From Caulobacteraceae bacterium (GTDB lineage Bacteria; Pseudomonadota; Alphaproteobacteria; Caulobacterales; Caulobacteraceae): 36,182 bases of DNA. A model generated the notes under the pieces. The model was not told the origin of the DNA, searched no databases, and was given only the letters and a program-made list of their open reading frames with translations. Below, piece after piece: positions 1-34,874 of this stretch. Position numbers and translations under genes: made by a program. The stretch covers positions 1-36,182 of the forward strand of contig JANXTX010000392.1 in the NCBI GenBank assembly GCA_025352165.1, given 5' to 3'. How positions within the stretch are numbered: the first letter of the stretch is position 1; each line of letters opens with the position of its first letter.

Positions 1-158
1 GGTCGAATAGACGACGACTATTTCCAGACGCTTCCCACCCTAGGCTTATGTCTTAATCCCCTTCATCTCGGGGCGGTCGAATAGACTTCAAGGTGGGATG
101 CAATCGCCTTTTCGCAGATGCGTCTTAATCCCCTTCATCTCGGGGCGGTCGAATAGAC
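1..158 (-). CRISPR. Leader-proximal end of a CRISPR array; 37-nt repeat (minus strand) GTCTATTCGACCGCCCCGAGATGAAGGGGATTAAGAC
   Basis: Identical repeats at 50-86 and 122-158, plus a partial repeat at 1-12; spacers 13-49 (37 nt) and 87-121 (35 nt). The array continues beyond the left edge. Minus orientation is inferred from the CCCC/GGGG stem followed by an 8-nt ATTAAGAC handle and from the cas operon direction. Confidence 0.97.
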
Positions 159-355
159 TCTTGGCCTTAAATTCTCCTATATAATCCAACGGTTTGCTCA
201 GCATGGTAACAATTGTAGCCAGGTACCCAAGAGGTAACTTCTTTCGGAGGGGGGCCCAGGCCAATATCTCGAACGATTTCAAAGAGCGGTAAATCCCATC
301 GTGCCAAAAACCAGGCGGCGGTTGAGGCGCCCCCCTGGACGCGCCGGTCATGCGG
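159..355 (-). promoter_or_regulatory. Putative CRISPR leader between the second cas2 and the first repeat
   Basis: Noncoding gap between the cas2 stop (356) and the first repeat; locally AT-rich near the array (minus strand ...TTGGATTATATAGGAGAATTTAAGG...). Confidence 0.7.
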
Positions 356-718
356 TCATGAAGGGGCCTGGGAAGACTGAGTTTCCGCGTCACGTGTGTC
401 AAGAGCGACTGTCGCGCCCGGCCGCCGCGCCCGCGGTCGCGCGGACCCCGGCCACCAATGAATGCCGTCGGGCAGGTTGATCATTCCGGTGTCGAGTGGC
501 GGGCCGGTGATTTTGCCGGAGACCTGATAGAGGCGAAGATCGTCGCGCTTTGGATCAATGATCTTGGCGGCGGCGGACAGGAACGCCTCTGGGCGAAACC
601 GGGCTTCGACAACCACGAACACCGACCATTGCACGCGCACGCCATGCTGGCGCACGAGACGGTACAGCCGCCGCCAGCGGCGCGGACAGGCGATGTCGTA
701 TGCGATCATCCAGGTCAC
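356..718 (-). CDS. cas2: Cas2 (array-proximal copy)
   Basis: MIAYDIACPRRWRRLYRLVRQHGVRVQWSVFVVVEARF: Cas2 ferredoxin-like fold with the N-terminal Asp. GTG start at 718 overlaps the upstream stop; an alternative ATG is at 709. Confidence 0.88.
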   Translation of the reverse strand: MTWMIAYDIACPRRWRRLYRLVRQHGVRVQWSVFVVVEARFRPEAFLSAAAKIIDPKRDDLRLYQVSGKITGPPLDTGMINLPDGIHWWPGSARPRARRPGATVALDTRDAETQSSQAPS

Positions 719-1542
719 GCCTCGACCTCTTCGGCGCAATCGCGGACCAGCCTCTCGAACCGACGCAAGGCGCCCGCGAAATGTTTGGCCAGGGCAGGTT
801 CGGCGTGATCGAAGGCCAGAGCGCAACGATGCGCCAGATTGCCCGCGCCGGCGCCGTCCATGGGTCCGGCCGGCCGGCGGCGCCGCGCCTCGCGTTGCGC
901 CTGTTCCAGCGTTTCGGACAGCAGCATGGGCGAGACGACCAGCGCCAGCCGTTGCGGCACGTTGGGCTTGTCGCTGGAGAACCCGAAATGGCCCAGGAAC
1001 AGGGATTGAGTCTGCAAGCGTTCGACGGTCCAGCCGTGCAGGATTTCCTGCAGACAGCTCCAGATCCTGCGGGTCGGTCCCGGCGATTCCAGGGTCCTCA
1101 ATCCCACGCGCAGCGCCAGGCGCGCGTCCCCGAGCGCAAGCGACCGGCTCACCGCCGTCTGAGCCTCGGGGCGGTTCTTCAACGCCGCCAGCAGCGAACG
1201 CCGCAGTTCACTGTCGGTCCAGTTTTCCAGGCGGTTGTTCCAGTCGGCGTGCAGGCCGGCCTCCTCGATCAGTGCGCCGAAGGTCTTCGCCGGGGGGCGC
1301 GCCGGCAGAAAACAGGCTACGCCGCGCCCGGCGTTCAGGAAGCTGATCGGGATCGAATGCGCCGCGCAAGCCAGCAGGGCGTCGCCGGCCCAGTCCACGC
1401 GGCCCCAGCAGCTGATCCGCCGCAGCCGGGGCAGCGGGGCCAGGATGGGAACCTCATCAGGCTGCTCGATCTGCAGCGCGGCGCCGTAGAGAGCGATCCG
1501 CAGGGGACGGACGCGCCCGTCGAGGTAGAGGCATTCGCTCAC
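715..1542 (-). CDS. Cas1-like protein: Cas1-type N-terminal domain, catalytic motifs not recognisable
   Basis: N-terminus ...ALQIEQPDEVPILAPLPRLRRISCWGRVDWAGDALLACAAHSIPISFLNAGRG aligns by eye with the N-domain of the adjacent Cas1. No G-x-E-G or GxLHxxxxGRxSLxxDLxE motif is present. It overlaps cas1 by 4 nt. Confidence 0.6.
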   Translation of the reverse strand: MSECLYLDGRVRPLRIALYGAALQIEQPDEVPILAPLPRLRRISCWGRVDWAGDALLACAAHSIPISFLNAGRGVACFLPARPPAKTFGALIEEAGLHADWNNRLENWTDSELRRSLLAALKNRPEAQTAVSRSLALGDARLALRVGLRTLESPGPTRRIWSCLQEILHGWTVERLQTQSLFLGHFGFSSDKPNVPQRLALVVSPMLLSETLEQAQREARRRRPAGPMDGAGAGNLAHRCALAFDHAEPALAKHFAGALRRFERLVRDCAEEVEA

Positions 1543-2513
1543 GGCTCGTCATCCGGGCAACCGCCAAGCTCGGGAATCGCCTGCGCGTCGAGACCCATCG
1601 CCAGCCGTCGCGCCGATCGCCCGAGCCAGCGCGACCACAGCGGCAGGCTGGTGTCGAGGTCTCGATAGAACGCGGCGCGACCGGCCTTTCCCAGCAGGCA
1701 GGCGCCGTCCGGACCCGTCGTGAAATGTTCACCGCGCAGGCGGCGTTCCCGGAACAGGCCTTCGATCCACACATCGATGTGCGGGCGCAGCGGCTCGACC
1801 AGATCGCAGGCCAGGCTTTCGCGTCCAAAGCTGGGGGCGTGAAGAAAGCCGATCATGGGATCGAGACCGTGGCGCTGCGCCTGTTTGCCGGCCTCGAAGG
1901 TGGCGATGGTATAGGCCAGCGACAGGGCGGCGTTGACGGGGTCCCGGGGCGGGCGCCGGTTGCGGCCGGCAAAGCCCAGCGATGGGGCGAAGGCCCCGAC
2001 CAGAGCGCTCCAATACAGGCGGGCGGCCGCGCCCTCGTGACCGCGCAGCGCGTCGAGGGATGTGGCGGCCAGGATGCGCGGGGCCATCTCGCCGATGGCG
2101 CGATCGAAGGCGAGGGCATCCCGGCGCATGGCTCCGCGCGCCTTGGCGAGCCGCGTCAGGGCCCTGGCCTGGGACGCCAGCTTGGCCGACACCAGCGGTT
2201 TCGCCCAGGCCACGGCGCGATCGGGGTCGCAGGCCGCCAGAGTCTGCGCCATGCGCCGGCGCACATCGTTGGTCGGCTGTCCATGGAAGCGCGCCGTCGG
2301 CTCGCTGCGTCGCCCCGACAGCAACAGCAGGCCGATGCCTTGCGTCCACAGGCGAGTGAGCAGACCGGTGTCGAGGGTCGCCGCGCCTCGAACGATGATT
2401 CGTTCGATCTGGCCGAGCGGCAGGCTAAGACTCTCCCCGCCAGCCTGGACCCGCAGCGCGCCGCCGTCCAGGGACAGCCGGGCGTCCTTTCGGTCGATGA
2501 ACAACGCCGTCAT
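1539..2513 (-). CDS. cas1: CRISPR-associated endonuclease Cas1
   Basis: Contains GHEGAAARLYWSAL (catalytic Glu) and GFLHAPSFGRESLACDLVEPLRP (catalytic His and Asp/Glu). Confidence 0.95.
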   Translation of the reverse strand: MTALFIDRKDARLSLDGGALRVQAGGESLSLPLGQIERIIVRGAATLDTGLLTRLWTQGIGLLLLSGRRSEPTARFHGQPTNDVRRRMAQTLAACDPDRAVAWAKPLVSAKLASQARALTRLAKARGAMRRDALAFDRAIGEMAPRILAATSLDALRGHEGAAARLYWSALVGAFAPSLGFAGRNRRPPRDPVNAALSLAYTIATFEAGKQAQRHGLDPMIGFLHAPSFGRESLACDLVEPLRPHIDVWIEGLFRERRLRGEHFTTGPDGACLLGKAGRAAFYRDLDTSLPLWSRWLGRSARRLAMGLDAQAIPELGGCPDDEP

Positions 2514-2516
2514 CGC

Positions 2517-2804
2517 CTAGCCCACGAACAGGACGGCGCGAGGCGGCGCCGGCGGGCGTCCCCGCCCCAGGTTGAGCACCGCGCGTTTCGGCGTGAGGTC
2601 GGCGACCATCCACAGATCCGTCTCCGGATGGCAGATACGCGCCAGACCCTTGCACAGCGCGGCGCGCTCCGCCCCCGTGACCCAGCATTCATGGACCGAT
2701 TTCTGGCCGCCCGAAGCATAGGTCGTGCACAGCTTCAAGGCGCGTTTCAACCGCCGCGCGGCGGTGATGTCGTAGGCGGCGATGACGAGACGGCGATGGG
2801 GCAT
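2517..2804 (-). CDS. cas2: Cas2 (second, cas1-proximal copy)
   Basis: 95 aa MPHRRLVIAAYDITAARRLKRALKLCTTYASGGQKSVHECWVTGAERAAL: Cas2 YDI and VQxSVxEC-like motifs. ATG at 2804, stop at 2517, 3 nt before the cas1 start. Confidence 0.82.
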   Translation of the reverse strand: MPHRRLVIAAYDITAARRLKRALKLCTTYASGGQKSVHECWVTGAERAALCKGLARICHPETDLWMVADLTPKRAVLNLGRGRPPAPPRAVLFVG

Positions 2805-2914: not shown

Positions 2915-3190
2915 CTAGAGGACGCTCTTTCGCAGGACTTCGTTTATCCGCGATTGCCAGCCCGGTCCGCCCGCTCTGAACTTCTCCAGCACCTCGGGGT
3001 CGAGGCGTAGAGTCACTTGCCGCTTCGTCCGTGCCTGGGTCGAACCCGGGGGACGGCCGCGCCGGCCAGTGTTGGGAAAGGCGGCCTTCAAATGGGGCGG
3101 CAAATCGGCGGCGGGTTTCGCCCGCGCGAAATCCTCCGCCGTCCATTCTGGATTGTCGTCGTCAAACGCGACCGGCTCGCGGGTGGACAT
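2915..3190 (-). CDS. brnA: BrnA-family antitoxin
   Basis: GRPPGSTQARTKRQVTLRLDPEVLEKFRAGGPGWQSRINEVLRKSV: BrnA ribbon-helix-helix C-terminus; overlaps the upstream BrnT gene. Confidence 0.85.
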   Translation of the reverse strand: MSTREPVAFDDDNPEWTAEDFARAKPAADLPPHLKAAFPNTGRRGRPPGSTQARTKRQVTLRLDPEVLEKFRAGGPGWQSRINEVLRKSVL

Positions 3191-3434
3191 ATCGTCTGAT
3201 CTCCTTTGCGTGCGCCCGCCGCGGGCTGATGGCTCTCACGCGGTCGCCTCGATCGACGGCCGCGAGGCAATAGGGCGCTCCGTCAATCAAACCATAGTGA
3301 CGGCAACGCGGTTCGCCGAAACGGGCGCTGTCATCGACGAAGAGAAAGGCGTCCAGTTCAGCGGCCCGCGCCAGAGAGATGCCGTGCTTGTCGACGTTTG
3401 CGGCATCCTTGGCGGGATCGAACTCGATGTCCAC
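3162..3434 (-). CDS. brnT: BrnT-family toxin
   Basis: DIEFDPAKDAANVDKHGISLARAAEL...RAISPRRAHAKEIRRY: BrnT signature; GTG start at 3434. Confidence 0.88.
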   Translation of the reverse strand: MDIEFDPAKDAANVDKHGISLARAAELDAFLFVDDSARFGEPRCRHYGLIDGAPYCLAAVDRGDRVRAISPRRAHAKEIRRYVHPRAGRV

Positions 3435-3726: not shown

Positions 3727-4014
3727 TCAGCCGCGTGGCCGTGGCCCATGAGGGCCGTACAGCCCGCGCAACGCCGCCACTTCGCGGGCCACTTCCTCCG
3801 GCGCCGGCTCCGGCAATTGCAGATGGGCGGCGAGGACACCGGCGAACACATCGTGTTCATTGGCCCTGGACCCCATCTCGCGGGCCGCTTGGCGCGACGA
3901 AATCTCTCCGGCGGAATAGCGCCGCAGGATGGTCAGGGTGCGAGCGTCGGGCGTATCACCTGGATGTCGAGCCTCGGATTGGCGCTTTCCGCCCGCCTGA
4001 TGATGTCGTTCCAT
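3727..4014 (-). CDS. Small putative antitoxin paired with the upstream PIN-like gene
   Basis: DARTLTILRRYSAGEISSRQAAREMGSRANEHDVFAGVLAAHLQLPEP; overlaps the 3' end of the upstream ORF; start codon uncertain. Confidence 0.45.
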   Translation of the reverse strand: MERHHQAGGKRQSEARHPGDTPDARTLTILRRYSAGEISSRQAAREMGSRANEHDVFAGVLAAHLQLPEPAPEEVAREVAALRGLYGPHGPRPRG

Positions 4015-4427
4015 ATCTCCTCCGCCGATTCGATAAGACCGCGTTCCTCCGCGAATGCGAGAACCGCGCGCGTTGTCGCCACCACGACGACTTCGGCAAG
4101 ATTCTCCCGCGCGATCAGCCTGGGCATCTTCTTGTCTTCATAGACCACCAGAGCCGGCCCGCCAATCTCGGGCAAGGTGTCGACCAGCCAATCGCGAATG
4201 GCGTTCTCTCCCGCATTTTGCATCGTGAATTCGGGATTTGTTTGCCGCGCCAGACGGTACGCTTCGCCGATCTCAGTCTTGACGACCTCCACGGGTTGGT
4301 TGCCACCGGCCTCCTGCCCCTTAGCCAGCCACGCGGCGACTTCACGCGCCCACGGCTTCGTAGCGTCGTCACTGGCCTCGTACGCGACGATATCCATCAC
4401 CATGACGCGGCCGAACTCTTGCAACAA
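3933..4427 (-). CDS. PIN-like domain protein (putative toxin)
   Basis: GEAYRLARQTNPEFT...AIRDWLVDTLPEIGGPALVVYEDKKMPRLIARENLAEVVVVATTRAVLAFAEERGLIESAEEIW; pattern resembles PIN-like toxin C-termini. Confidence 0.5.
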   Translation of the reverse strand: MLQEFGRVMVMDIVAYEASDDATKPWAREVAAWLAKGQEAGGNQPVEVVKTEIGEAYRLARQTNPEFTMQNAGENAIRDWLVDTLPEIGGPALVVYEDKKMPRLIARENLAEVVVVATTRAVLAFAEERGLIESAEEIWNDIIRRAESANPRLDIQVIRPTLAP

Positions 4428-4504: not shown

Positions 4505-5779
4505 TCATGATTTCGAACCGAACGGGCCGGTCGGAAACGGCCCCATCGGCGTCAGGCCCATCGCCGGCGAGATGACGGCGTCGATCCAGGTGAAGGCGTT
4601 CTCGACCACCCGCCGCTCGATCGGGCCGTAGCCGTGAGCCAGGATCGATCCGTTGCGCGCGTTCAGCCACTCCGGGCCATGGGGGCCGGCGTCGAGGTAG
4701 CCGCGGGCGAGGGGGTCCAAGGGATCGCGCCGCTCCAGCAGGCGCATGGTCTGCATCAGTCCAAACTTGAACACCGCCACGCCCAGACGCGGATTCATCT
4801 CCGGCTTGAGGCCCTCGCGAAGGTCGGCCGGAATATTCGCCTCGGCCAGTTCTCCTGATTTCAGACCCCATCGTCGGAATAGTTGTGTCTGGGCGCAGGC
4901 CTCGACGAAACGATAAAGGCGGGCGAGGGCGTCGTCGAAACGTCGTTGCGCGAGCCGTCGCCGCGCGTTTTCCAGCAGGTCCAGGCAAAGGGCGGCGGTA
5001 GGTTCGTTGCGCCCGGTCGCCAACTCGCGAAGGATGGCCGCGTGTCCAAACCGTTCCAGGTCTCGCGCCCAAGGTGCGCCGCCCGCGGCCGCCGATTGCA
5101 TCATTCTGCAAGCATCCTTGTGATCGAAACGATCCCAGGCCGCCATGCACTGGCTCCAGGTTCGGCCGAACTCCAGACGATTCCGCAGCGTCTTCGTCGG
5201 CTTCAGGCCTTCATTGTTCAATCGATCCCTGAGGAACTCGAAAAGTGCGTGCGCCGCCGCATAGTCGCCGCCCCGGGCGACACGCAGGGCGGTCTCCAGT
5301 TCGGATTCGACGGCGATCAGGCGGGTGTCGATGTCCAGCGACGATTCAGTGCCCGATGTCACCCGCGCGAGATCCTGGCGGACGCCCGTGGTCAGCTGGG
5401 TCCGGTGGCCGCGCTGAAAGGCCGCCATCAGCAGGGCGGTGGACATGCTCTTGGTGCCGCCGGTGTAGTTGGCGACGATGGCATGATCCGGATAATTTCG
5501 CGACAGGGTGTCGAGGGTGGCCAGTATTCTACCGAACGCCGCCGCCGGATCATCCGATGGCGTCTCCATATGATCGACGGCATGGCCGGGTGATCGGGCC
5601 ATGAAGGCGTCGCCGAGCCCCCGCGCGGCGTCGCGCGACGAGGCCTGCGCGCCGCCGCCTTCCGAGGCGATCAGCAGCAGACGCGCGGGCGCCGTGTCCT
5701 CGATCGCCCGCAGCAGCGGCGCCGCGGACCCACCGACCGTAAGGACCAGGATCACGGGAGAAGCTGGAGTGGCGGTCAT
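4505..5779 (-). CDS. CARF-HEPN ancillary CRISPR protein, TIGR02710-like
   Basis: CARF signature VILVLTVGGSAAPLLRAIED...ANYTGGTKSMSTALLMAA; C-terminal LNARNGSILAHGYGPI contains an R-x6-H HEPN RNase-type motif. Confidence 0.82.
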   Translation of the reverse strand: MTATPASPVILVLTVGGSAAPLLRAIEDTAPARLLLIASEGGGAQASSRDAARGLGDAFMARSPGHAVDHMETPSDDPAAAFGRILATLDTLSRNYPDHAIVANYTGGTKSMSTALLMAAFQRGHRTQLTTGVRQDLARVTSGTESSLDIDTRLIAVESELETALRVARGGDYAAAHALFEFLRDRLNNEGLKPTKTLRNRLEFGRTWSQCMAAWDRFDHKDACRMMQSAAAGGAPWARDLERFGHAAILRELATGRNEPTAALCLDLLENARRRLAQRRFDDALARLYRFVEACAQTQLFRRWGLKSGELAEANIPADLREGLKPEMNPRLGVAVFKFGLMQTMRLLERRDPLDPLARGYLDAGPHGPEWLNARNGSILAHGYGPIERRVVENAFTWIDAVISPAMGLTPMGPFPTGPFGSKS

Positions 5780-5782
5780 GCC

Positions 5783-7006
5783 TTACTGTCGCTCCAGCCG
5801 GTGGATGCTCGCGCGCGCCTTCTCGAGTTCGGCCCGCAAGACTTTGGCCTCGGCGATCGCCGCCTCCGCCTCCGCCTCGACGCCGTCGACGAACGCCGCG
5901 AGGGCCGCGCCGTGGCGATCATCCGGCTGAGCCGTGAGGTCTTTTTCCGCGAAACGCGCGACATCATAGTCCTTTCGCCATAGACCGGGGCCTACCAGCA
6001 CCGTGCGCTCATATTCGTCGTGGCGGAGAATGTCGGCCAGCCAGATGTCATCGCCCTCGGTCCAGTAGAACAGTCGGGGAGCGCTCCCGTCGTACGTCTT
6101 CCAGATCAGGAGGTCGGTATTGGAATGCCTGTCGCGATGTTTCGCGGCCCGGCGCAGGTCCGGAACGTTCAGACTTTCGATAGCCGTGTCGACCAGTGGA
6201 TTGTCGCCGTGCCGCCCCGCTTTGGGATGGATCCGCAGGCGGCCGGCGCGTAGGCTGGGGACCGGCGCTTCCAGCGCCAGCTCGCCGGCGGCGCTGACCG
6301 CCACCATGCCGCCCTCGCGTTCGAAGAGCAGCTCGAGGGTGGGTTCCCCGGCCCAGCCGGCGCGGCGGGCCAGCTGGTCGAACGTAGCCTCTGCCATCAC
6401 CCCCTTTTCGGCGAGCGCGCTCAACATCGGCAGGGCCGGGGCGATCAACTCCGTCGCCATTCGCACCGGCAGGGCCGGCAGGCGGATCAGGGCGTCGATC
6501 TCCTGGTAGACATAGAGAATCTCGGCGCCCTCGAACATGCCCAGCAGCGTGAGATAGGGCACGACGCCCTTGTAGCCGCCGGTGACGTTGAACACCGGCG
6601 TCTGCCCCCGCGCGCGCGCGTCCCGCGCCGCCGCCCGCGCCTTGCGCACCAGGTTGCGCAGCCCCTCCTCGCGGAAGCGCGCCTCATGGCCGACCTGCAG
6701 GCCGGTGATCGCCTCGATGCGGGCGCGCACGTCCAAGTTCTCGAAAATCAGGCCCCTGAGCGATTCGGCGCAGGCGCGGCCGTCGTCGGTATCGCTGGCC
6801 AGCAACAGCACCTCGTCGGCCGGCCCGCAGTCGCGGCGCGCCAGTACATTGGTTTCGGCGGCGGCGGCGATCAGGAAGGCGCGGGGGTCGCCCGCGTGCT
6901 CCCGTCGCCTGGCGTCGAGATGCTCGCCGATCCGTTGGGCGATGGCCACGCCCGCCGCCGGCCGTCCGGCGATCGAGGTTCCGACGGTGCAGATGTAGAG
7001 GGTCAT
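5783..7006 (-). CDS. CARF-domain effector with C-terminal RelE-like domain (Cami1-like) and coiled-coil tail
   Basis: MTLYICTVGTSIAGRPA...TPVFNVTGGYKGVVPYLTLLGMFEGAEILYVYQEIDALIRLPALPV is a CARF signature; the C-terminal LIWKTYDGSAPRLFYWTEGDDIWLADILRHDEYERTVL resembles RelE mRNA interferases. Confidence 0.68.
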   Translation of the reverse strand: MTLYICTVGTSIAGRPAAGVAIAQRIGEHLDARRREHAGDPRAFLIAAAAETNVLARRDCGPADEVLLLASDTDDGRACAESLRGLIFENLDVRARIEAITGLQVGHEARFREEGLRNLVRKARAAARDARARGQTPVFNVTGGYKGVVPYLTLLGMFEGAEILYVYQEIDALIRLPALPVRMATELIAPALPMLSALAEKGVMAEATFDQLARRAGWAGEPTLELLFEREGGMVAVSAAGELALEAPVPSLRAGRLRIHPKAGRHGDNPLVDTAIESLNVPDLRRAAKHRDRHSNTDLLIWKTYDGSAPRLFYWTEGDDIWLADILRHDEYERTVLVGPGLWRKDYDVARFAEKDLTAQPDDRHGAALAAFVDGVEAEAEAAIAEAKVLRAELEKARASIHRLERQ

Positions 7007-7103
7007 GGCTGTCGAGATCTTCCCCCGTGGTTGGTCCACGCTGCCCCGAGGCCGTCGTCACCGCCCCTGGCGCCGAGGGCCACGAGGCGATTGGTCGAAA
7101 CCG

Positions 7104-8603
7104 TCATGCCTTGCGCCAGCCTTCAACAGAGACTGGCTCGGCCCCATCGCCAAACCCGAAGTCCACATCCATCTTGCTGTCATTCAGGCCAACACTGCGG
7201 ACGACGGTTGCCTCATCCTGGTCGGGGTGGGTAACCCGATCACCTTTTTGAAACCGGAACGTCCCCGCCAACGCCGCCGTGGCTTGGACGGGCGCTGCTG
7301 GCGCGGGCCGTCCAGCAGGTACACGGGCGGCCGTGGTCGGAGCGGTCGCTCGCGCCAGGTCCGCAAAGTCCACGCGCGGGGCGCCGTTCGGCCCCTTGCC
7401 CGGCAAGGCCAGCATCAGCCAGCCGAAGGGGGCGTAGAGGCCGGGGGCGACCTGGACGGTTGTACGTGTGACGCCCTCGTCGATCAGGCGGGCGGGATTT
7501 TCCACCCGCGTCTGCTTGTTGAACGTCTTAATCTTCAGGCCGTGGCGTTCGCCGCCGACTTTGACGGATTTCGACTCGAAATGGGCGTAGCGGCCCACCC
7601 GGAGCAGGATCAGCCCGGCGCGGTCTAACTGGCCGGCAAGGTCGGGGTCGCCCTTCAGCCCGAAGGCGGCAAGCAGGCGGTCGAGCGCCTGACCGGCGGC
7701 GGCGGCGTAGAAGCGACCGCGCTCGTAGAGCCACAGGTCGGCATGAAAGCGATTGGCGGCGGCCCACAGGGCGGGCGCGTCGATTAACGTCTCAGGCACG
7801 ATGCGCTTGCCATGACGGGTTCCCTGGCGAGCCCGTTCCGAGGCGTCCTTTGCGGAGATCACGTCGATGTCGATCACCAGCGGTTCGACTGGCTGGCCGT
7901 CGGCCAAGCTCTCCAGCCGCTCCACGTGCATCTGGATGCCGCCGGTTTGATCGATGTTGAGCTTTTGAAGCTCCTTGTCCCGCTTGCCAAGAGTGGCGCG
8001 GTCAAAGCGGGTACGCCCGGCGGGGATGGCCGCGTCCGCGACCGCCAGATCGCGGAAGGGATCCTGTTCCAGCGTCCGACCGTTGTCCATGTCCAACGCG
8101 ACCTGGTTAAGGTCCTGATGCGCGCGGGCTGTTCGCGTGTCACTGATGCCCGCCGCAATCCTTCGTCCATCGGCTTGCTTCACATGCGCGCTGATCCAGG
8201 CCGTTCGAAAGGCCCCTTTGAGGCTTGAACCTGGGAGGATTGGCGTCTCGCCGCCGCGCACGAAGGGTTGAACTCGCCCGGTGCCGCGATCGGGATTGCC
8301 GCCCAGTACCTTCTCAAGGTCGGCGAGACTGTCCCCCGAGACCTTGATTCCTTGATCGCCGCCTCGCGTCTCGCGGGCCGCCAGTCTCGCCAGATGCTTT
8401 TGCGCATTGGCGAGGTTGTCGTTCGTCAGCAGCGCCCGATACTGCTCCCGCTCCGCCTCGCTCGCCCGCGCCAAGGCCCCGAAAGGATTGAAGCTCCTCA
8501 GGCGATCGCCCTCAAGGACGAACGACTCCGGTGTCAACTCCAGCCCCGACCCGACATGGATCGGAGTCAGCGGCCACGCCCGCAAGGTGAAGCGTTCACG
8601 CAT
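7104..8603 (-). CDS. csm5: Csm5 with C-terminal Tudor/SH3-like extension
   Basis: WPLTPIHVGSGLELTPESFVLEGDRLRSFNP...ILPGSSLKGAFRTAW: RAMP Csm5 motifs. C-terminus FRFQKGDRVTHPDQDEATVVRSVG...DVDFGFGDGAEPVSVEGWRKA follows an Ala/Pro linker. ATG at 8603. Confidence 0.88.
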   Translation of the reverse strand: MRERFTLRAWPLTPIHVGSGLELTPESFVLEGDRLRSFNPFGALARASEAEREQYRALLTNDNLANAQKHLARLAARETRGGDQGIKVSGDSLADLEKVLGGNPDRGTGRVQPFVRGGETPILPGSSLKGAFRTAWISAHVKQADGRRIAAGISDTRTARAHQDLNQVALDMDNGRTLEQDPFRDLAVADAAIPAGRTRFDRATLGKRDKELQKLNIDQTGGIQMHVERLESLADGQPVEPLVIDIDVISAKDASERARQGTRHGKRIVPETLIDAPALWAAANRFHADLWLYERGRFYAAAAGQALDRLLAAFGLKGDPDLAGQLDRAGLILLRVGRYAHFESKSVKVGGERHGLKIKTFNKQTRVENPARLIDEGVTRTTVQVAPGLYAPFGWLMLALPGKGPNGAPRVDFADLARATAPTTAARVPAGRPAPAAPVQATAALAGTFRFQKGDRVTHPDQDEATVVRSVGLNDSKMDVDFGFGDGAEPVSVEGWRKA

Positions 8604-9516
8604 GGGGCGCCTCCGCGAACGGAATGGCCACGTGGAAGGCGTTGTGCCCGATCTCGGGCCGGGTGGGATGCACACCGGTCAGCCATTCTCCGAACCGGCC
8701 CTCGCCGGCTCGCGTGAAGGTCGCGCCCGGCCGGGTCAGCAGCATCGGCCGCTTGAACGCGGAGGCGCCTTCGCCCAGTGTCAACTGCGGACCCGCCTTG
8801 CCGAAGTGCGGCTCGATCCGGCACAGCACGTCCGCCATGCTGGCTGTGCGCGTGCCGCGCGAAAGCGACAGATAGCGCGTCGGCCGCTCCATTCGTTCCA
8901 GTTCCGTATCCTCTCTGACCCATTCGACGCGGAATCGTCCCCGCCCGAGGCTCGCCGATTTGCCGAAACCGCTGCCGCCGACGTGGCTCAGGAGTTCGCC
9001 GACTCGCTCGCGGTCGGCGAGCGGCCCCTCGATGTAGAGATCGCGCGCGGCATCATCCTCGCGCGGCCAGGTTTCGGATCGGAAGAACAGCCCGCCCTCG
9101 TCCCGCGCCCGCCCGGTGTGGCGATCGACGCTGTTGCGCGCCGTGCGATGCGGCTTGTCCCCAGCCTCGCGCAGATTGGTGTGGTCGAGCGACTGGCCGC
9201 TCAGCGCATCGCGCGAGCGCAGAAACCCCTCGCGCGCCACGAACGGCATTTTTCCGAGCCTCTTTCGGTCGGTCACACTTTGGGGCGTGTCCGCCTTGGC
9301 GTCCGCGCGTGGGGCCAGCATCGGGCGAGGCAGGCAGTCGGCGGGGAAGGCGTCGGAGACGCCCCATAATTCGTCCGGCCGCGCCAGCCAGTCGACCAGC
9401 GGCGCCTCGCCCCGGCTCTCGCGCATGGCCCAGCACAGCTGGCCAAAAATCATCCCCGACGCCAGTGGCGAGGCGATCGGCCCTTGCAGCCGGAGGCGGG
9501 CGCGAAACAGCCCCAT
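8596..9516 (-). CDS. csm4: Csm4
   Basis: MGLFRARLRLQGPIASPLASGMIFGQLCWAMRE...GGSGFGKSASLGRGRFRVE: Cas5-like RAMP; syntenic position; ATG at 9516. Confidence 0.9.
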   Translation of the reverse strand: MGLFRARLRLQGPIASPLASGMIFGQLCWAMRESRGEAPLVDWLARPDELWGVSDAFPADCLPRPMLAPRADAKADTPQSVTDRKRLGKMPFVAREGFLRSRDALSGQSLDHTNLREAGDKPHRTARNSVDRHTGRARDEGGLFFRSETWPREDDAARDLYIEGPLADRERVGELLSHVGGSGFGKSASLGRGRFRVEWVREDTELERMERPTRYLSLSRGTRTASMADVLCRIEPHFGKAGPQLTLGEGASAFKRPMLLTRPGATFTRAGEGRFGEWLTGVHPTRPEIGHNAFHVAIPFAEAPHA

Positions 9517-9518
9517 GC

Positions 9519-10325
9519 TCAGGCGGCCTTGCTTGCCTGAGCGCAGGCCTGCTCGACGATATCCAGAATGTCGCTCGGCGGGTTGGTGGGATCGAAGCGC
9601 TTGCCCCTGAACAGGTTGTCGAGGGAATGCGTCGCGCCATCCAGTCCCTGCAGCGTCAACCCCTCGAACCGCACCTGACCATAGCCGCGCGAGCCCGACC
9701 CTCCGAGCGCGTCCTGTTCGATCAGGTCCAGGGCCTGGATGAACCACGCCAGACACTGCCGGTCCCGAGCGCCCCCGTCACCGGTGTCCCACATCCGCAA
9801 GCCGATCTCGACGTCGAACCGCGCGCCGGCTGGGACACGTTCGGTCTGGCGCAGGCCGCCGTCGAGCGCCTTGCCGGCGATCCGATCGATGGAGACCTCC
9901 GTCTTGTCTTCGGTGAGCAATTTCGCATCGGCGACCATGCGGTCGCGCCAAGCGCGTTCCAGGGGGGCGTCACGAACCGTCAGGCGCGTCGGCCCGCCTT
10001 GCCAGGCTGTTCGGGACGCGGCGGTCCCGAACAGGCGCAGGATCACATCGCCGCCCTCTCTCCGGCTCTCCGCGTCGGCGTCGTCGAAGCCGAACGCCCT
10101 GCCGTCATCCCGCACCGTGTTGAAGGCCCATTCCAGCAGGAACCGCGCCTTTCCCTTCAGGCTCGAACCGGGGATGTAGGGTTCCAGCGTATGCGGATGC
10201 TTGATCACCGGGTTGTCCATGCCGCCGATCTCGATGGCGTCCTTGCCCGCGCCGATGTGCAGGCCCGTCTTGACCACGAGGACCGACCTGAGGGTCACGC
10301 GGCCGATGTAGCGAAGCTCAGTCAT
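9519..10325 (-). CDS. csm3: Csm3, target-RNA cleaving backbone subunit
   Basis: TGLHIGAGKDAIEIGGMDNPVIKHPHTLEPYIPGSSLKGKAR with catalytic-type Asp in GGMDNPV; GSGSRGYGQVRF; ATG at 10325. Confidence 0.95.
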   Translation of the reverse strand: MTELRYIGRVTLRSVLVVKTGLHIGAGKDAIEIGGMDNPVIKHPHTLEPYIPGSSLKGKARFLLEWAFNTVRDDGRAFGFDDADAESRREGGDVILRLFGTAASRTAWQGGPTRLTVRDAPLERAWRDRMVADAKLLTEDKTEVSIDRIAGKALDGGLRQTERVPAGARFDVEIGLRMWDTGDGGARDRQCLAWFIQALDLIEQDALGGSGSRGYGQVRFEGLTLQGLDGATHSLDNLFRGKRFDPTNPPSDILDIVEQACAQASKAA

Positions 10326-10326
10326 G

Positions 10327-10803
10327 TTACCTCTCGCTGTCCTTGGCATAGACCTTGTGGAAGGCCACGACCGTCTCGAAATGCCTGTGAAAGGCCGCAA
10401 AGTCGTCCCGCGTCGCCACCGTGTTGGCGTGAGTGACCATGAAGCGCACCAGCGGCAAATTCTTCTGATCCCGACCTGCGGCGTAGGCGGTCGATGCCTT
10501 CAGAAATGCCAGCTGCGCCTGGATCTCGCCCTCGGTGAGCACTTTGTTGGTGTCCATATCGAGCCGCCGTTTGATCGCCGAAACCTGTCCGAAGAAGCGG
10601 CGAAGCTGGGTGGTCGGAATATCCGCCAGTTGTTGTGCGGTCGTCTGTGCCTCGGCATCGAGCAGCGCCGGCCGAATACTTCTCTTTTCGTCGAAATATT
10701 TCGCGCGTTCAGCGCTCTTCAGCGCCTCGCGCACGCTGTCGATGCCGCCACGGCCCGGCGGTCCACCACCCTGCGCGCCGCGATAATCCTGTCGTCCGTT
10801 CAT
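10327..10803 (-). CDS. csm2: Csm2, small subunit
   Basis: Syntenic between cas10 and csm3; helical ...TTQLRRFFGQVSAIKRRLDM...LPLVRFMVTHANTVATRDDFAAFHRHFETVVAFHKVY; ATG at 10803. Confidence 0.88.
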   Translation of the reverse strand: MNGRQDYRGAQGGGPPGRGGIDSVREALKSAERAKYFDEKRSIRPALLDAEAQTTAQQLADIPTTQLRRFFGQVSAIKRRLDMDTNKVLTEGEIQAQLAFLKASTAYAAGRDQKNLPLVRFMVTHANTVATRDDFAAFHRHFETVVAFHKVYAKDSER

Positions 10804-10816
10804 GGCGCGAAATCTC

Positions 10817-13342
10817 CTATCGATTGCGGTAGATGGCGATGGTGATGGCAACGCGGGCGTACGGTGGGGCGCCGGCATCGCGTAGATCCAGCCCCACCCC
10901 CATCAGGCCCATCAGGCGCTCGCGCACTGTCCGGTTGCCGTCCATGGGGCCGCCCTTGGGCAGGCTACGGAACAGCGTATAGCCGAGCTTTGCCCGCCAG
11001 TCGGCGCACGTAGGATCGGTGCGGGCCTTCATGCGGCGATCGTCCAGAGCCAGCAGCCGATAGAGAAGCGTGGTCGAAACCTTGCCGTCGGCTATCAATC
11101 GATCGAGTTCCTCTGCCTGTTCCAGGGCTTGGGACCAGTCGCCCCAGGTCATCGCCGTCGCGACCGGGCCGATCGCCGAGATGCGGTCCTTCTTGTTGTC
11201 CTCGACGTGCTTGGCCGCGTCCAGCCGCGCCTCCGCCTCGATGGCGGCCAGCGAGATCGGTGTCTTCGGGTCGAACAGGGCGACGCCGGCGGAAAGGGTG
11301 AGGCTCGGATTCCCGCCGGCGAAGGCGGCGAACTGGCCGCGCAAATCCGCCGCGAACCGCAGCACGTCGAACCACGGCCCCAGCAGCATCATATCGTCGC
11401 CGCCGGCGTAGACGGTGTAGAGGTTGGCGTATTTCTCGCGCAGGAAATCCGGCAGCCAGCCGGTGAAGAAGGCGTCCATCAACCGCGAGAGGGCGGCTGC
11501 GCGCGACAGACTGCGCCGATCGCCGAGCCCCAGGCTGAACACGCTGCCCAGGTTGTCCACGTCGGCCTTGAGCAGGGCAAGCATCGGGCGGCCGACCGGG
11601 TGGCCATTCACCTCGCGGCGGCTGTAGGCGGCCAGTTCCGCGAAGGTCAGAAGCTCGCCTTCCCCGGGGTTTTCATCGTCGCCGGACTCCCTTCGCGCCT
11701 TGCGCAGAGTCTCGTTCGCCAGCGAGGCTTGGTCATGCTTCGGCGTGTAGGCCTCGAAAAAGCGATCGGCGGCCGGCTTGCCGTCGCTCATGGCAAGACC
11801 CCGGCGTCGAAAACCCAGGGCGCCAGGCGCGGAGTCTCCCGCGCCCAGCACGGAAAACCCGAGGCCGAACAGGTTGTCCGAGCCACGTTTCTCGGAGACG
11901 GCGATGGCGTCCGCCTTGGTCAGGCGTCGGCCGAGGTTGGTTTCAGCCTCGCAGGCAGGGCATCGCGCGCGTTCATCGACCGCGCCTCGCACGGCGGCGG
12001 GTCGCACGCCGCAGGCCTCGCAAATCCCGAGCTCGACGTCGAATGGCAGGTCGACCACGCCCAGCGCCTCGGTTTGCAGCGGCCGCAGCTTGGCGGTCTC
12101 GGCGGCTTCGGCGACCTGGGCATAGACTTTCGGCAGATCATGGATCAGGTCGTTGGCCGACACCGGTGCGGTCAGCGCGAGGTTGAGTACGAGATCACCG
12201 ACGTATTGGGCGCGCATCCAGGCGTCGATCTCGCCGCGCAGGCTTGCCACGATCGCCTCCGCCCTACCCGCGCCTGTCTCCGGAACCAGCATCAGGAACC
12301 GGCCGCCGGCCAACTGAATGACGCTGAACGCCGGCAGGCCGAACGCAGCGTATGAGCGACGGGCTGCCGCTTCGCCGATCATCTGCATACGGAAGGACCG
12401 GCCGCGAAGTAGCCGCGCGAGGCCTTTCACACCCTCGCTCTTCAGCCGGAACAGACTGGCCTGTATGCCGGAGAGATCGCCGATCAGCAGCCGGAACTTT
12501 GGCCGGGCGCGATCCCTGACGGCGCCTTCGTGCTTCAGATCGCCGGCCGAGGCGTGGTGAATCTGCAGGCAGGCGGCCACTGCCGCGGCGACCCGCCCAT
12601 GGTCATGCAGCGACACGTCCGGATCGTCGATAGTCGAGGAGGGGATCGACCAGCAGTATCGCTCGCTAAGCGCGATCAGCCCCTCGACATAAGCGTCCAC
12701 GCTCTCGCCGGCGCGATCCGCGAGTTCGGCGTAGTCGCCCACGAATTTCTTCCAAAGGTCTTGGTACTGACCGATCGTTTCCTGATCCTTGCGGTCATCG
12801 CCCAGTTTGAACAGCTGGGCCGGCGACAGTTCGGCGACGGGGTAGAACCTGGTTGTCGGCGCATTACGGTCCGGCAGATGAACCTTGGTCGGCGTGGCCA
12901 TCAGCCGCGTTCGGCGATAGTCGTCGCGCCGCTTGGCGTCGGGCGAACTCTCCTGATCCTCGTCCCGCTTTTTTCGCTCCATGGCCGCGGCGATGCGGTC
13001 GGCCTCGGTCACCAGCCAGGTGATCGAACCGTTGGGGACCGCGGCGCCGTCCTGCAGCGGCTTGTGGTGATAGACCGCGCAGTCGCGGATCCATGTTTTG
13101 TCCAAAGCGGCCGGCAACGGGTTCCCCTCAACGCATTCCTGAAAAAAGGCTTCGGAAAACAATGCGTGGTAGTGGCTGGATCGATTGTTGAACGACGGCA
13201 GGATGTCGCTTTCGAGGTTGCGCACCGCCTCTGGCAGGTCGCCGACATCGCCGATCGCCCGCTGCATGAACTTGCCGATGTCGTGCAGGTGCGCGCCGAT
13301 GGCGACCTCGAAGGCGGTAGGCAGGGCTCTGCGTTCGGTCAT
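10817..13342 (-). CDS. cas10: Cas10/Csm1 with HD and GGDD cyclase motifs
   Basis: IGAHLHDIGKFMQRA (HD), CEACGVRP...CPACEAE (zinc finger), YAGGDDMMLLGPW (GGDD). Confidence 0.97.
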   Translation of the reverse strand: MTERRALPTAFEVAIGAHLHDIGKFMQRAIGDVGDLPEAVRNLESDILPSFNNRSSHYHALFSEAFFQECVEGNPLPAALDKTWIRDCAVYHHKPLQDGAAVPNGSITWLVTEADRIAAAMERKKRDEDQESSPDAKRRDDYRRTRLMATPTKVHLPDRNAPTTRFYPVAELSPAQLFKLGDDRKDQETIGQYQDLWKKFVGDYAELADRAGESVDAYVEGLIALSERYCWSIPSSTIDDPDVSLHDHGRVAAAVAACLQIHHASAGDLKHEGAVRDRARPKFRLLIGDLSGIQASLFRLKSEGVKGLARLLRGRSFRMQMIGEAAARRSYAAFGLPAFSVIQLAGGRFLMLVPETGAGRAEAIVASLRGEIDAWMRAQYVGDLVLNLALTAPVSANDLIHDLPKVYAQVAEAAETAKLRPLQTEALGVVDLPFDVELGICEACGVRPAAVRGAVDERARCPACEAETNLGRRLTKADAIAVSEKRGSDNLFGLGFSVLGAGDSAPGALGFRRRGLAMSDGKPAADRFFEAYTPKHDQASLANETLRKARRESGDDENPGEGELLTFAELAAYSRREVNGHPVGRPMLALLKADVDNLGSVFSLGLGDRRSLSRAAALSRLMDAFFTGWLPDFLREKYANLYTVYAGGDDMMLLGPWFDVLRFAADLRGQFAAFAGGNPSLTLSAGVALFDPKTPISLAAIEAEARLDAAKHVEDNKKDRISAIGPVATAMTWGDWSQALEQAEELDRLIADGKVSTTLLYRLLALDDRRMKARTDPTCADWRAKLGYTLFRSLPKGGPMDGNRTVRERLMGLMGVGLDLRDAGAPPYARVAITIAIYRNR

Positions 13343-14409
13343 GACTCCCGCCAGTTGATGTTTTCGGGCGCGACGTTCAGGCGATAGAGGGTGTTCGGGC
13401 GCCGCCCCGCGCTCGCCACCAACTTGACATCAAAAAGCCCGGCATGGGAACGGCTAACAAGCTTGTTGAGGCGGGAAGTCCACTCCTCGACCTGCTGGGC
13501 GTCGAGCACGGCCGGGAGCGGCGCTCCGGGCGGTCGCCAGCGATCCACCAGGGCGCCGTCCAGCCGGTTGCGCGGCAGACCCCCTCCGCCGTGTCGCTGG
13601 TCCCACGCCAGCGCCGCCAGCCAGGCGAAATAGGCCGGCGTGAGCACCAGCGCCCTTCCGTTGATCGACGCCTCCCCCGCGGCCGGCCGGATCGACAGGC
13701 TCGGCGGATCGAGGGAACGCTGGGCGCCCAGGATCGCCTCGGCGAAATGCGCGGCCTGGAAGATTTCGTCGGGTAGCCGCGCCCTCAGGCGTGGAAACGG
13801 TATGTCGGCCAGTCGAACGTCGGCGTCGCCGGTGTCCAGGATCGCCCCATCGCGACCCGTGAGTTTGACGGGCATCGGCGGCGGATAGAAAAAGTCCGCG
13901 TGGTTGGCGAAGGCGTCGTCGACGATCACGTGCGACAGGCGGTCGCCGGGACTGGCGAACAAGGACATCGACAAGGCCAGCAGGGCGCCTTGCGATTTGC
14001 GGCCACCGGCGATCGAGGCGTGAATCTGGTGACCGGCCTCGGCTGTGAGATCACGAATGATCGCCATGGTGCGATCCGCCGCCGCGCGGTGCGCCGCGTC
14101 GCTGTCGAGGTCCTCGAAGCCGGGCTGGTCGGCGTCGGCGATGATCTCCACGCGCGTCCGCGCGTCGAGCGTGGCCAGATCCTCGCGATCGTAGGCTCGG
14201 CCGAGGGACCGTAGCTGGGCCGCGCCTGCGTCCAGCAGGCTTTCGCGCGCCCGCCGGGCGCCTTCCCGGGTCGTGATCAGCACGATCTGGTCCGGAGTCC
14301 AGGCGGGGTCGCTTCGGATCGCGAGCGACCAGACGGTTTCGGTGACCACCTGCGGCGAAAGGCCGGTGGACAGGACCAGGGTCCGGCGCGGTTGCTCAGG
14401 CGGCGGCAA
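13339..14409 (-). CDS. NE0113-family (TIGR02584-like) CARF protein; possible ring nuclease or regulator
   Basis: LVLSTGLSPQVVTETVWSL...IHASIAGGRKSQGALLALSMSLFASPGDRLSHVIVDDAFANHADFFYPPP; C-terminal winged-helix-like LNKLVSRSHAGLFDVKLVASAGRRPNTLYRLN. Confidence 0.85.
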   Translation of the reverse strand: MPPPEQPRRTLVLSTGLSPQVVTETVWSLAIRSDPAWTPDQIVLITTREGARRARESLLDAGAAQLRSLGRAYDREDLATLDARTRVEIIADADQPGFEDLDSDAAHRAAADRTMAIIRDLTAEAGHQIHASIAGGRKSQGALLALSMSLFASPGDRLSHVIVDDAFANHADFFYPPPMPVKLTGRDGAILDTGDADVRLADIPFPRLRARLPDEIFQAAHFAEAILGAQRSLDPPSLSIRPAAGEASINGRALVLTPAYFAWLAALAWDQRHGGGGLPRNRLDGALVDRWRPPGAPLPAVLDAQQVEEWTSRLNKLVSRSHAGLFDVKLVASAGRRPNTLYRLNVAPENINWRES

Positions 14410-15602: not shown

Positions 15603-15627
15603 TTACCTGTTTTAAGGATCGAGTTCC

Positions 15628-15781
15628 AGCCGCCGTCGGGCCGCCATCCGACCGCCGCCCGACCGCCAACCGACCGCCAATCGACCGCCAACCAACCGCC
15701 AACCAGCCGCCAACCAACCGCCAACCAACCGCCCCCCGACCGCCGCCGCGCCGCCAACGGACCGCCGACGGACCGCCGAAG
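15628..15781. repeat. 11-bp tandem repeat, 14 units, consensus GACCGCCAACC
   Basis: Read unit by unit from 15628 to 15781 with exact 11-bp phase (AGCCGCCGTCG / GGCCGCCATCC / GACCGCCGCCC / GACCGCCAACC / ...). Confidence 0.93.
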
Positions 15782-15791
15782 CTTTCGGCGG
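15773..15791. other. Hairpin CCGCCGAA-GCT-TTCGGCGG at the end of the tandem repeat, upstream of dnaG
   Basis: Perfect 8-bp stem with a 3-nt loop. Confidence 0.6.
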
Positions 15792-34613: not shown

Positions 34614-34874
34614 ATTCTTTGCACGATCATTTTGATTTTTTCACAAGTTCAGCCGCCCACGGTCCAAAGCCGCCGCACCAATAATTTGTTACCAGCCCGC
34701 GGACGATCGTTTGGTCAAAGAATCTGATGGCCCGGTCAGCCTTCTTTTCAGACCGATGGAGACGCGATATGAGCGACTCTATCGGGCCGACGCGGGCGCC
34801 CGAATCCAGACGGGTGTCCGTCCAAGTCCCGCTCCTTGACGGTCCCGCCGGTTGGCGGCGAAGGAGCGCGTGAG

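Follow-up and report, generated by a model that had tools for sequence, protein, structure and literature searches.

Results

Architecture of the locus

The stretch of DNA analysed here (hereafter the window; 36,182 nucleotides) is a whole contig (C176) of a Caulobacteraceae assembly made up of 437 contigs. A four-gene CRISPR adaptation module with the order cas2-cas1-cas1'-cas2' occupies positions 356-2804 of the minus strand, between an array and the genes of a type III-A effector. The features are:

1-158, minus strand: end of a CRISPR array (partial repeat 1-12, spacer 13-49, repeat 50-86, spacer 87-121, repeat 122-158)
159-355, minus strand: probable leader, assigned by position only, between the adaptation genes and the array
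356-718, minus strand: cas2', second Cas2 (PF09827, E=2.1e-11), GTG start
715-1542, minus strand: cas1', diverged Cas1 that lacks most of the catalytic site (PDLC01185, E=2.6e-10), GTG start
1539-2513, minus strand: cas1, canonical catalytic integrase subunit (PF01867, E=9.4e-66)
2517-2804, minus strand: cas2, variant Cas2 family with a GGQKSV motif and a conserved C-terminal tail (PF09827, E=8.9e-10)
4505-5779, minus strand: CARF-type accessory gene, Csm6-type HEPN (TIGR02710)
5783-7039, minus strand: CARF-type accessory gene, CARF7/RelE-like (profile matches)
7104-8675, minus strand: csm5 (PADLOC and Pfam matches)
8596-9675, minus strand: csm4 (PADLOC and Pfam matches)
9519-10400, minus strand: csm3 (PADLOC and Pfam matches)
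10327-10878, minus strand: csm2 (PADLOC and Pfam matches)
10817-13342, minus strand: Cas10/Csm1, type III-A effector upstream of the adaptation module (TIGR02578, E=2.7e-160)

The four open reading frames lie exactly where the original prediction had placed them, with a 3-nt gap from cas2 to cas1 and overlaps of 4 nt between cas1 and cas1' (1539-1542) and between cas1' and cas2' (715-718). Cas10/Csm1 together with Csm2-5 assigns the locus to type III-A. The start of cas10 is overlapped by a gene for a CARF5-family protein (13339-14409, minus strand, E=1.7e-71), and the locus encodes three distinct CARF proteins.

Several further elements were recorded in the window. A BrnT/BrnA toxin-antitoxin pair (2915-3434, minus strand; PF04365, E=3.6e-14, and PF14384, E=1.2e-25) lies between the adaptation and the CARF genes. 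Two overlapping reading frames at 3727-4427 of the same strand, one for a 164-aa product with no Pfam match and one for a 95-aa product with a weak match to VbhA antitoxin, are perhaps a second toxin-antitoxin or Fic-type pair. Tandem 11-nt units resembling CCGACCGCCAA are repeated at least 10 times at 15615-15788, and a chrB-b RNA, a cis-regulatory motif (RF03086, 49.7 bits), was found on the plus strand at 34782-34832.

The array that had been proposed to adjoin the module is real. Its two full repeats are 37 nt long, it is interrupted by the contig end, and no further copies of its repeat were found elsewhere in the assembly. Read on the minus strand, the repeat terminates in GGGGATTAAGAC. 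Arrays beside related modules commonly have a repeat ending in GGGATTAAGAC or a near variant, and the window repeat ends alike; this likeness refers to module-adjacent arrays only. These arrays are multi-spacer, with spacers of tightly distributed length (median 34 nt), and in 27 related loci the array begins 29-315 bp downstream of cas2'.

Two divergent Cas2 proteins

Both small proteins are Cas2 by Pfam, with PF09827 scores of 39.1 bits (cas2) and 44.3 bits (cas2') against a cut-off of 23.8, and the profile search thereby bore out the predicted Cas2 relationship of the product of 2517-2804. TIGR01573 was narrowly missed by the two proteins (23.5 and 24.3; cut-off 24.5). PDB profile matches were all Cas2 for the first protein and all Cas2 or Cas2-like for Cas2', and the Cas2 Tyr-Asp is invariant in the alignments of both.

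Cas2' is the nearer to the canonical Cas2 pattern in the alignment (VQ-SV, DD-R-Y). The GGQKSV motif of the first Cas2 does not vary in two alignments covering 7 and 53 loci; GGQKS occurs in none of the 31 Cas2 proteins identified beside ordinary Cas1s, where Q(R)VQxSVF is mostly seen instead. The AF2 model of the first Cas2 has a pLDDT of 87, with low confidence in the C-terminal tail. The tail is conserved, yet not confidently folded alone, as would be expected of a docking tail.

A complete Cas1 and a Cas1 with a degenerate catalytic site

The window Cas1 matches PF01867 (222 bits; cut-off 22.3) and TIGR00287 (183; cut-off 71.7) over its full length and has all four catalytic residues, E160, H225, D237 and E240. 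These residues are kept across the aligned Cas1s of related modules: the Glu in 82/82, the His in 79/79 and the Asp/Glu pair in 79/80.

The predicted Cas1 relationship of the product of 715-1542 was likewise borne out. Its PF01867 score (20.0 bits) is just below the cut-off of 22.3 and covers the N-terminal domain only; 64 of 66 of its relatives match that profile at E<=0.001. The PADLOC profile PDLC01185, described as 'Cas1, diverged variant, second in the loci', matches all 66 members of the Cas1' family (best E=5.6e-147), and the window protein belongs to it both by its profile match and by its position, second after cas1. There is no dedicated NCBIfam model for Cas1'. Profile-profile alignment with Cas1 extends over the full length (probability 98.5, E=2.8e-15), and the 50 best PDB matches of the window AF2 model (pLDDT 87) in Foldseek are all Cas1 or casposase (best E=6.8e-8). 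Whole-chain TM scores to these matches are low (0.26-0.44), probably reflecting two domains set at a different angle in the model. Cas1' retains the Cas1 fold, including the N-terminal domain, the part through which Cas1 dimerises.

The catalytic site has fared differently. In the profile alignment, E160 and H225 fall in deletions of Cas1' and E240 is replaced; the position of D237 is Asp in 71% of the family and Arg in the window protein. Cas1' thus lacks equivalents of at least three of the four catalytic residues. Its near-invariant positions (L5, Y6, L23, P36, R39, R42, C59, G72, W108, L195 and L262) include none that is catalytic. Cas1' is the fastest-diverging protein, with a mean pairwise identity of 0.31 compared with 0.49 for Cas1. 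Its dN/dS values in close pairs (0.01-0.28) are near those of Cas1; Cas1' is under purifying selection and not decaying.

The products of cas2 and cas2' gave no BLASTP alignment with each other, and those of cas1 and cas1' no significant one. The original prediction that the module is not a recent tandem duplication therefore stands.

Distribution of the module

The GGQKSV motif was scanned against 84,980 species genomes, giving 190 encoding stretches, 80 of which were fetched; with the window and loci from earlier searches, 87 loci with a GGQKS-type Cas2 were analysed. All four genes are present in 73 of the 87, with identical order and strand in 72 of these 73; among loci with at least 2.5 kb of downstream sequence, 64 of 71 are complete. 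The module spans Alpha-, Beta-, Gamma- and Zetaproteobacteria and Acidobacteriota. Hosts include Rhodoferax antarcticus, Thiothrix caldifontis, Leucothrix pacifica, Methylotuvimicrobium buryatense 5G and Thauera phenylacetica, as well as Nitrosomonas, Ectothiorhodospira, Zetaproteobacteria and Bryobacteraceae. The possibility that the arrangement is private to the window genome, or a lone decaying remnant, was accordingly rejected. Effector genes in many of the loci are type III, both III-A (Csm) and III-B (Cmr-like).

An even sample of the phylum (399 genomes) gave eight matches to PDLC01185. True Cas1' was found in seven genomes, including that of the window, always in module context; one of these loci is cut by a contig end, and cas2' is present wherever the contig allows. 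A second search of the sample with a profile of 66 Cas1' sequences recovered the same genomes. Cas1 exceeds the cut-off in 124 of the 399, which puts the module in about 6% of the genomes that have a Cas1. Locus L017 (genome G320), a PDLC01185 match, was rejected as a module: it is an ordinary Cas1-Cas2 locus.

The module is rare among the relatives of the window genome (1 of 60). The class to which this genome belongs gave two true matches in 289 genomes, the other 20 matches being weak and mostly N-terminal. The closest relative of the window locus is that of a Hyphomonadaceae bacterium (Cas1 60% identical). A complete genome of the same class (G562, locus L141) has the four-gene module and a many-repeat array with no recognised effector nearby. 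No related Cas1' was found in viral contigs or plasmids; one viral contig (L098) carries a weak Cas2 relative, lacking GGQKS, beside an ordinary Cas1.

Inheritance, variants and losses

The Cas1s of the module form a single clade (FastTree support 0.90; IQ-TREE UFBoot 100) against 32 other Cas1s, an outgroup sample biased towards the strongest PF01867 matches. Pairwise tree distances of the four proteins are correlated with r=0.69-0.87, compared with a permutation maximum of 0.17. The four genes are one inherited, co-diverging adaptation module, and the original description of a duplicated, co-encoded and anciently diverged set of adaptation genes is fully supported.

Four loci (L040, L041, L043 and L097) consist of cas2-cas1-cas2' and leave no space in which cas1' could lie; they belong to Sphaerotilus and Rhodoferax relatives. 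L097 is from Sphaerotilus, and the absence was confirmed there on a complete plasmid record (L144, NZ_CP035707.1). The loci without cas1' are nested in the tree within the four-gene clade, which makes them secondary losses. As cas2' was retained in at least four loci that lost cas1', Cas2' is not strictly paired with Cas1'; a Cas2:Cas2' core would be the most constant feature of the module.

Other variants were single cases. On the Sphaerotilus plasmid, cas2-cas1-cas2' adjoins BREX genes and no effector genes are listed in the stretch. The only complete module with an altered order (L033, 7334-10468) has cas1 upstream of the GGQKS cas2, and this cas1 is preceded by a fragmentary Cas2-like reading frame. 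In Crenothrix polyspora (L044, 1648-2439) an inserted histidine-kinase-like reading frame separates cas1 from cas1', and an equally large gap occurs in a closely related contig (L065). One locus (L028, 4883-5792) has cas2 followed directly by cas2', both cas1 genes being absent, which could reflect either a deletion or a faulty assembly.

Discussion

Relation to known adaptation systems

The canonical Cas1-Cas2 integrase, as in E. coli, Synechocystis and P. aeruginosa type I-F, is a two-fold symmetric assembly of four Cas1 and two Cas2 subunits. The module shares with it a fully catalytic Cas1, the Cas2 fold, the position adjacent to the array and the operon structure. Unlike the canonical system, the window operon encodes two diverged Cas1s, one of them apparently defective in catalysis, and two diverged Cas2s. 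In solved integrases the repeat channel has an active Cas1 subunit at either end and walls formed by inactive Cas1 subunits (PMC12259127), and the non-catalytic Cas1 contacts the repeat (PMC6895254). The Cas6-RT-Cas1/Cas2 integrase, which has catalytic (Cas1a) and non-catalytic (Cas1b) positions in one complex (PMC8102632), likewise serves type III adaptation; there, however, a single gene supplies the protein for both positions, and this protein carries a fused RT. No RT domain was seen at the window locus with the profiles used, which are not RT-specific.

PDLC01185 describes the same family as the window Cas1', as a catalogue entry whose profile description covers neither the second Cas2 nor the catalytic loss or a function. 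Two genome papers, on Acidithiobacillus ferrivorans YL15 (PMC5438186) and Methylobacter KS41 (PMC6119699), mention in passing 'two copies of cas1/cas2' at type III loci. These are probably the same module; the papers do not analyse its gene order, its divergence, its catalytic residues or how widely it is distributed. No functional study of the four-gene module, or paper on its catalytic asymmetry, was found in a search that took in few subscription journals and no supplements, which is weak evidence of novelty. The second Cas1 was thus already catalogued; for the four-gene module the comparative evidence is strong, and the mechanism set out below is a proposal.

A proposed heteromeric integrase

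Taken together, our results make it fairly probable, in line with the hetero-oligomeric integrase of the original prediction, that the four genes, as one inherited module, produce a heteromeric Cas1-Cas2 spacer integrase for the type III array; the formation of the complex, its stoichiometry and its function in orientation are inferred. Cas1 would carry out both strand transfers. Cas1' would most likely fill the place of the non-catalytic Cas1 copy in each dimer, since the inactive position of the solved integrases suits a Cas1 given over to a non-catalytic role. The core, otherwise a homodimer, would most likely be a heterodimer of Cas2 and Cas2', with the C-terminal tail of Cas2 acting as a docking element. 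The assembly would be roughly (Cas1:Cas1')2-(Cas2:Cas2'), with a Cas1:Cas1' heterodimer at each end. Against the heteromeric model, the loss of cas1' from at least four loci that keep the other three genes indicates that Cas1' is not indispensable. Genes that are inherited together would also be expected to diverge and to be transcribed together when their products do not touch.

How a two-fold symmetric integrase achieves the correct orientation of spacers is an open problem (PMC12259127). A complex devoid of two-fold symmetry could bind the prespacer, the leader and the repeat in a single orientation, and a mixed Cas2 core would remove the symmetry owing to which spacer orientation otherwise depends on the PAM or on trimming. 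We suggest tentatively, as a possibility that we would not yet favour, that the integrase is obligately asymmetric, with Cas1:Cas1' heterodimers on the Cas2:Cas2' core, and that its protein composition sets the leader-side end of the prespacer; the spacers of type III arrays would thereby enter in the orientation that matches transcripts. Orientation would then be fixed by the proteins themselves, as opposed to the known solutions through PAM, Cas4 or trimming nucleases. The asymmetric repeat ends were dropped as an argument for such an integrase: symmetric integrases operate on asymmetric repeats too, and the array therefore does not demand symmetry breaking.

Alternative explanations

It is rather unlikely, though it deserves some weight, that Cas1', perhaps with Cas2', is a regulator or adaptor that binds Cas1 to restrain integration or to link acquisition with the type III effector or with a particular substrate. 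The apparent catalytic defect of Cas1', its rapid divergence and its losses would agree with such a role, as would the location of the module mostly beside type III effectors of both subtypes. However, an optional regulator would not be expected so constantly between cas1 and cas2' across two phyla, cas1' is kept also in modules with no adjacent effectors, and the second Cas2 is left unexplained.

The original prediction went further and proposed that each Cas1/Cas2 type serves one end of the prespacer. That a single operon holds two Cas1s and two Cas2s, each pair diverged, speaks for this division of labour, which we nevertheless consider improbable and which the analysis does not support. 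Cas1' is devoid of the residues needed for end joining, and with three catalytic residues lost an end served solely by Cas1' could not be joined; moreover, cas2' remains in loci from which cas1' has gone. A Cas1:Cas1' dimer per end on a Cas2:Cas2' core would fit these data better.

Very improbable is the juxtaposition by recombination of two independent adaptation modules, for which the absence of detectable direct similarity between the two Cas2s might speak: Cas1' by itself would not be able to act as an integrase, a Cas1'-Cas2' pair alone with an active array was seen in none of the 399 sampled genomes, and the conserved nested gene order, the co-divergence and the single Cas1 clade all argue against it. 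That cas1' and cas2' were left by a duplication and are now in decay, as the sub-threshold Pfam score of the window Cas1' could suggest, is refuted by reading frames conserved across phyla and by the dN/dS range of Cas1'.

The GGQKSV Cas2 offers a clean marker, and the repeat ending a signature, by which this overlooked lineage of adaptation modules can be recognised in strains that can be cultured, and the modules that have lost cas1' are natural experiments. If nature has built an integrase from four distinct subunits that include a dead Cas1, each position of the hexamer could be mutated separately.
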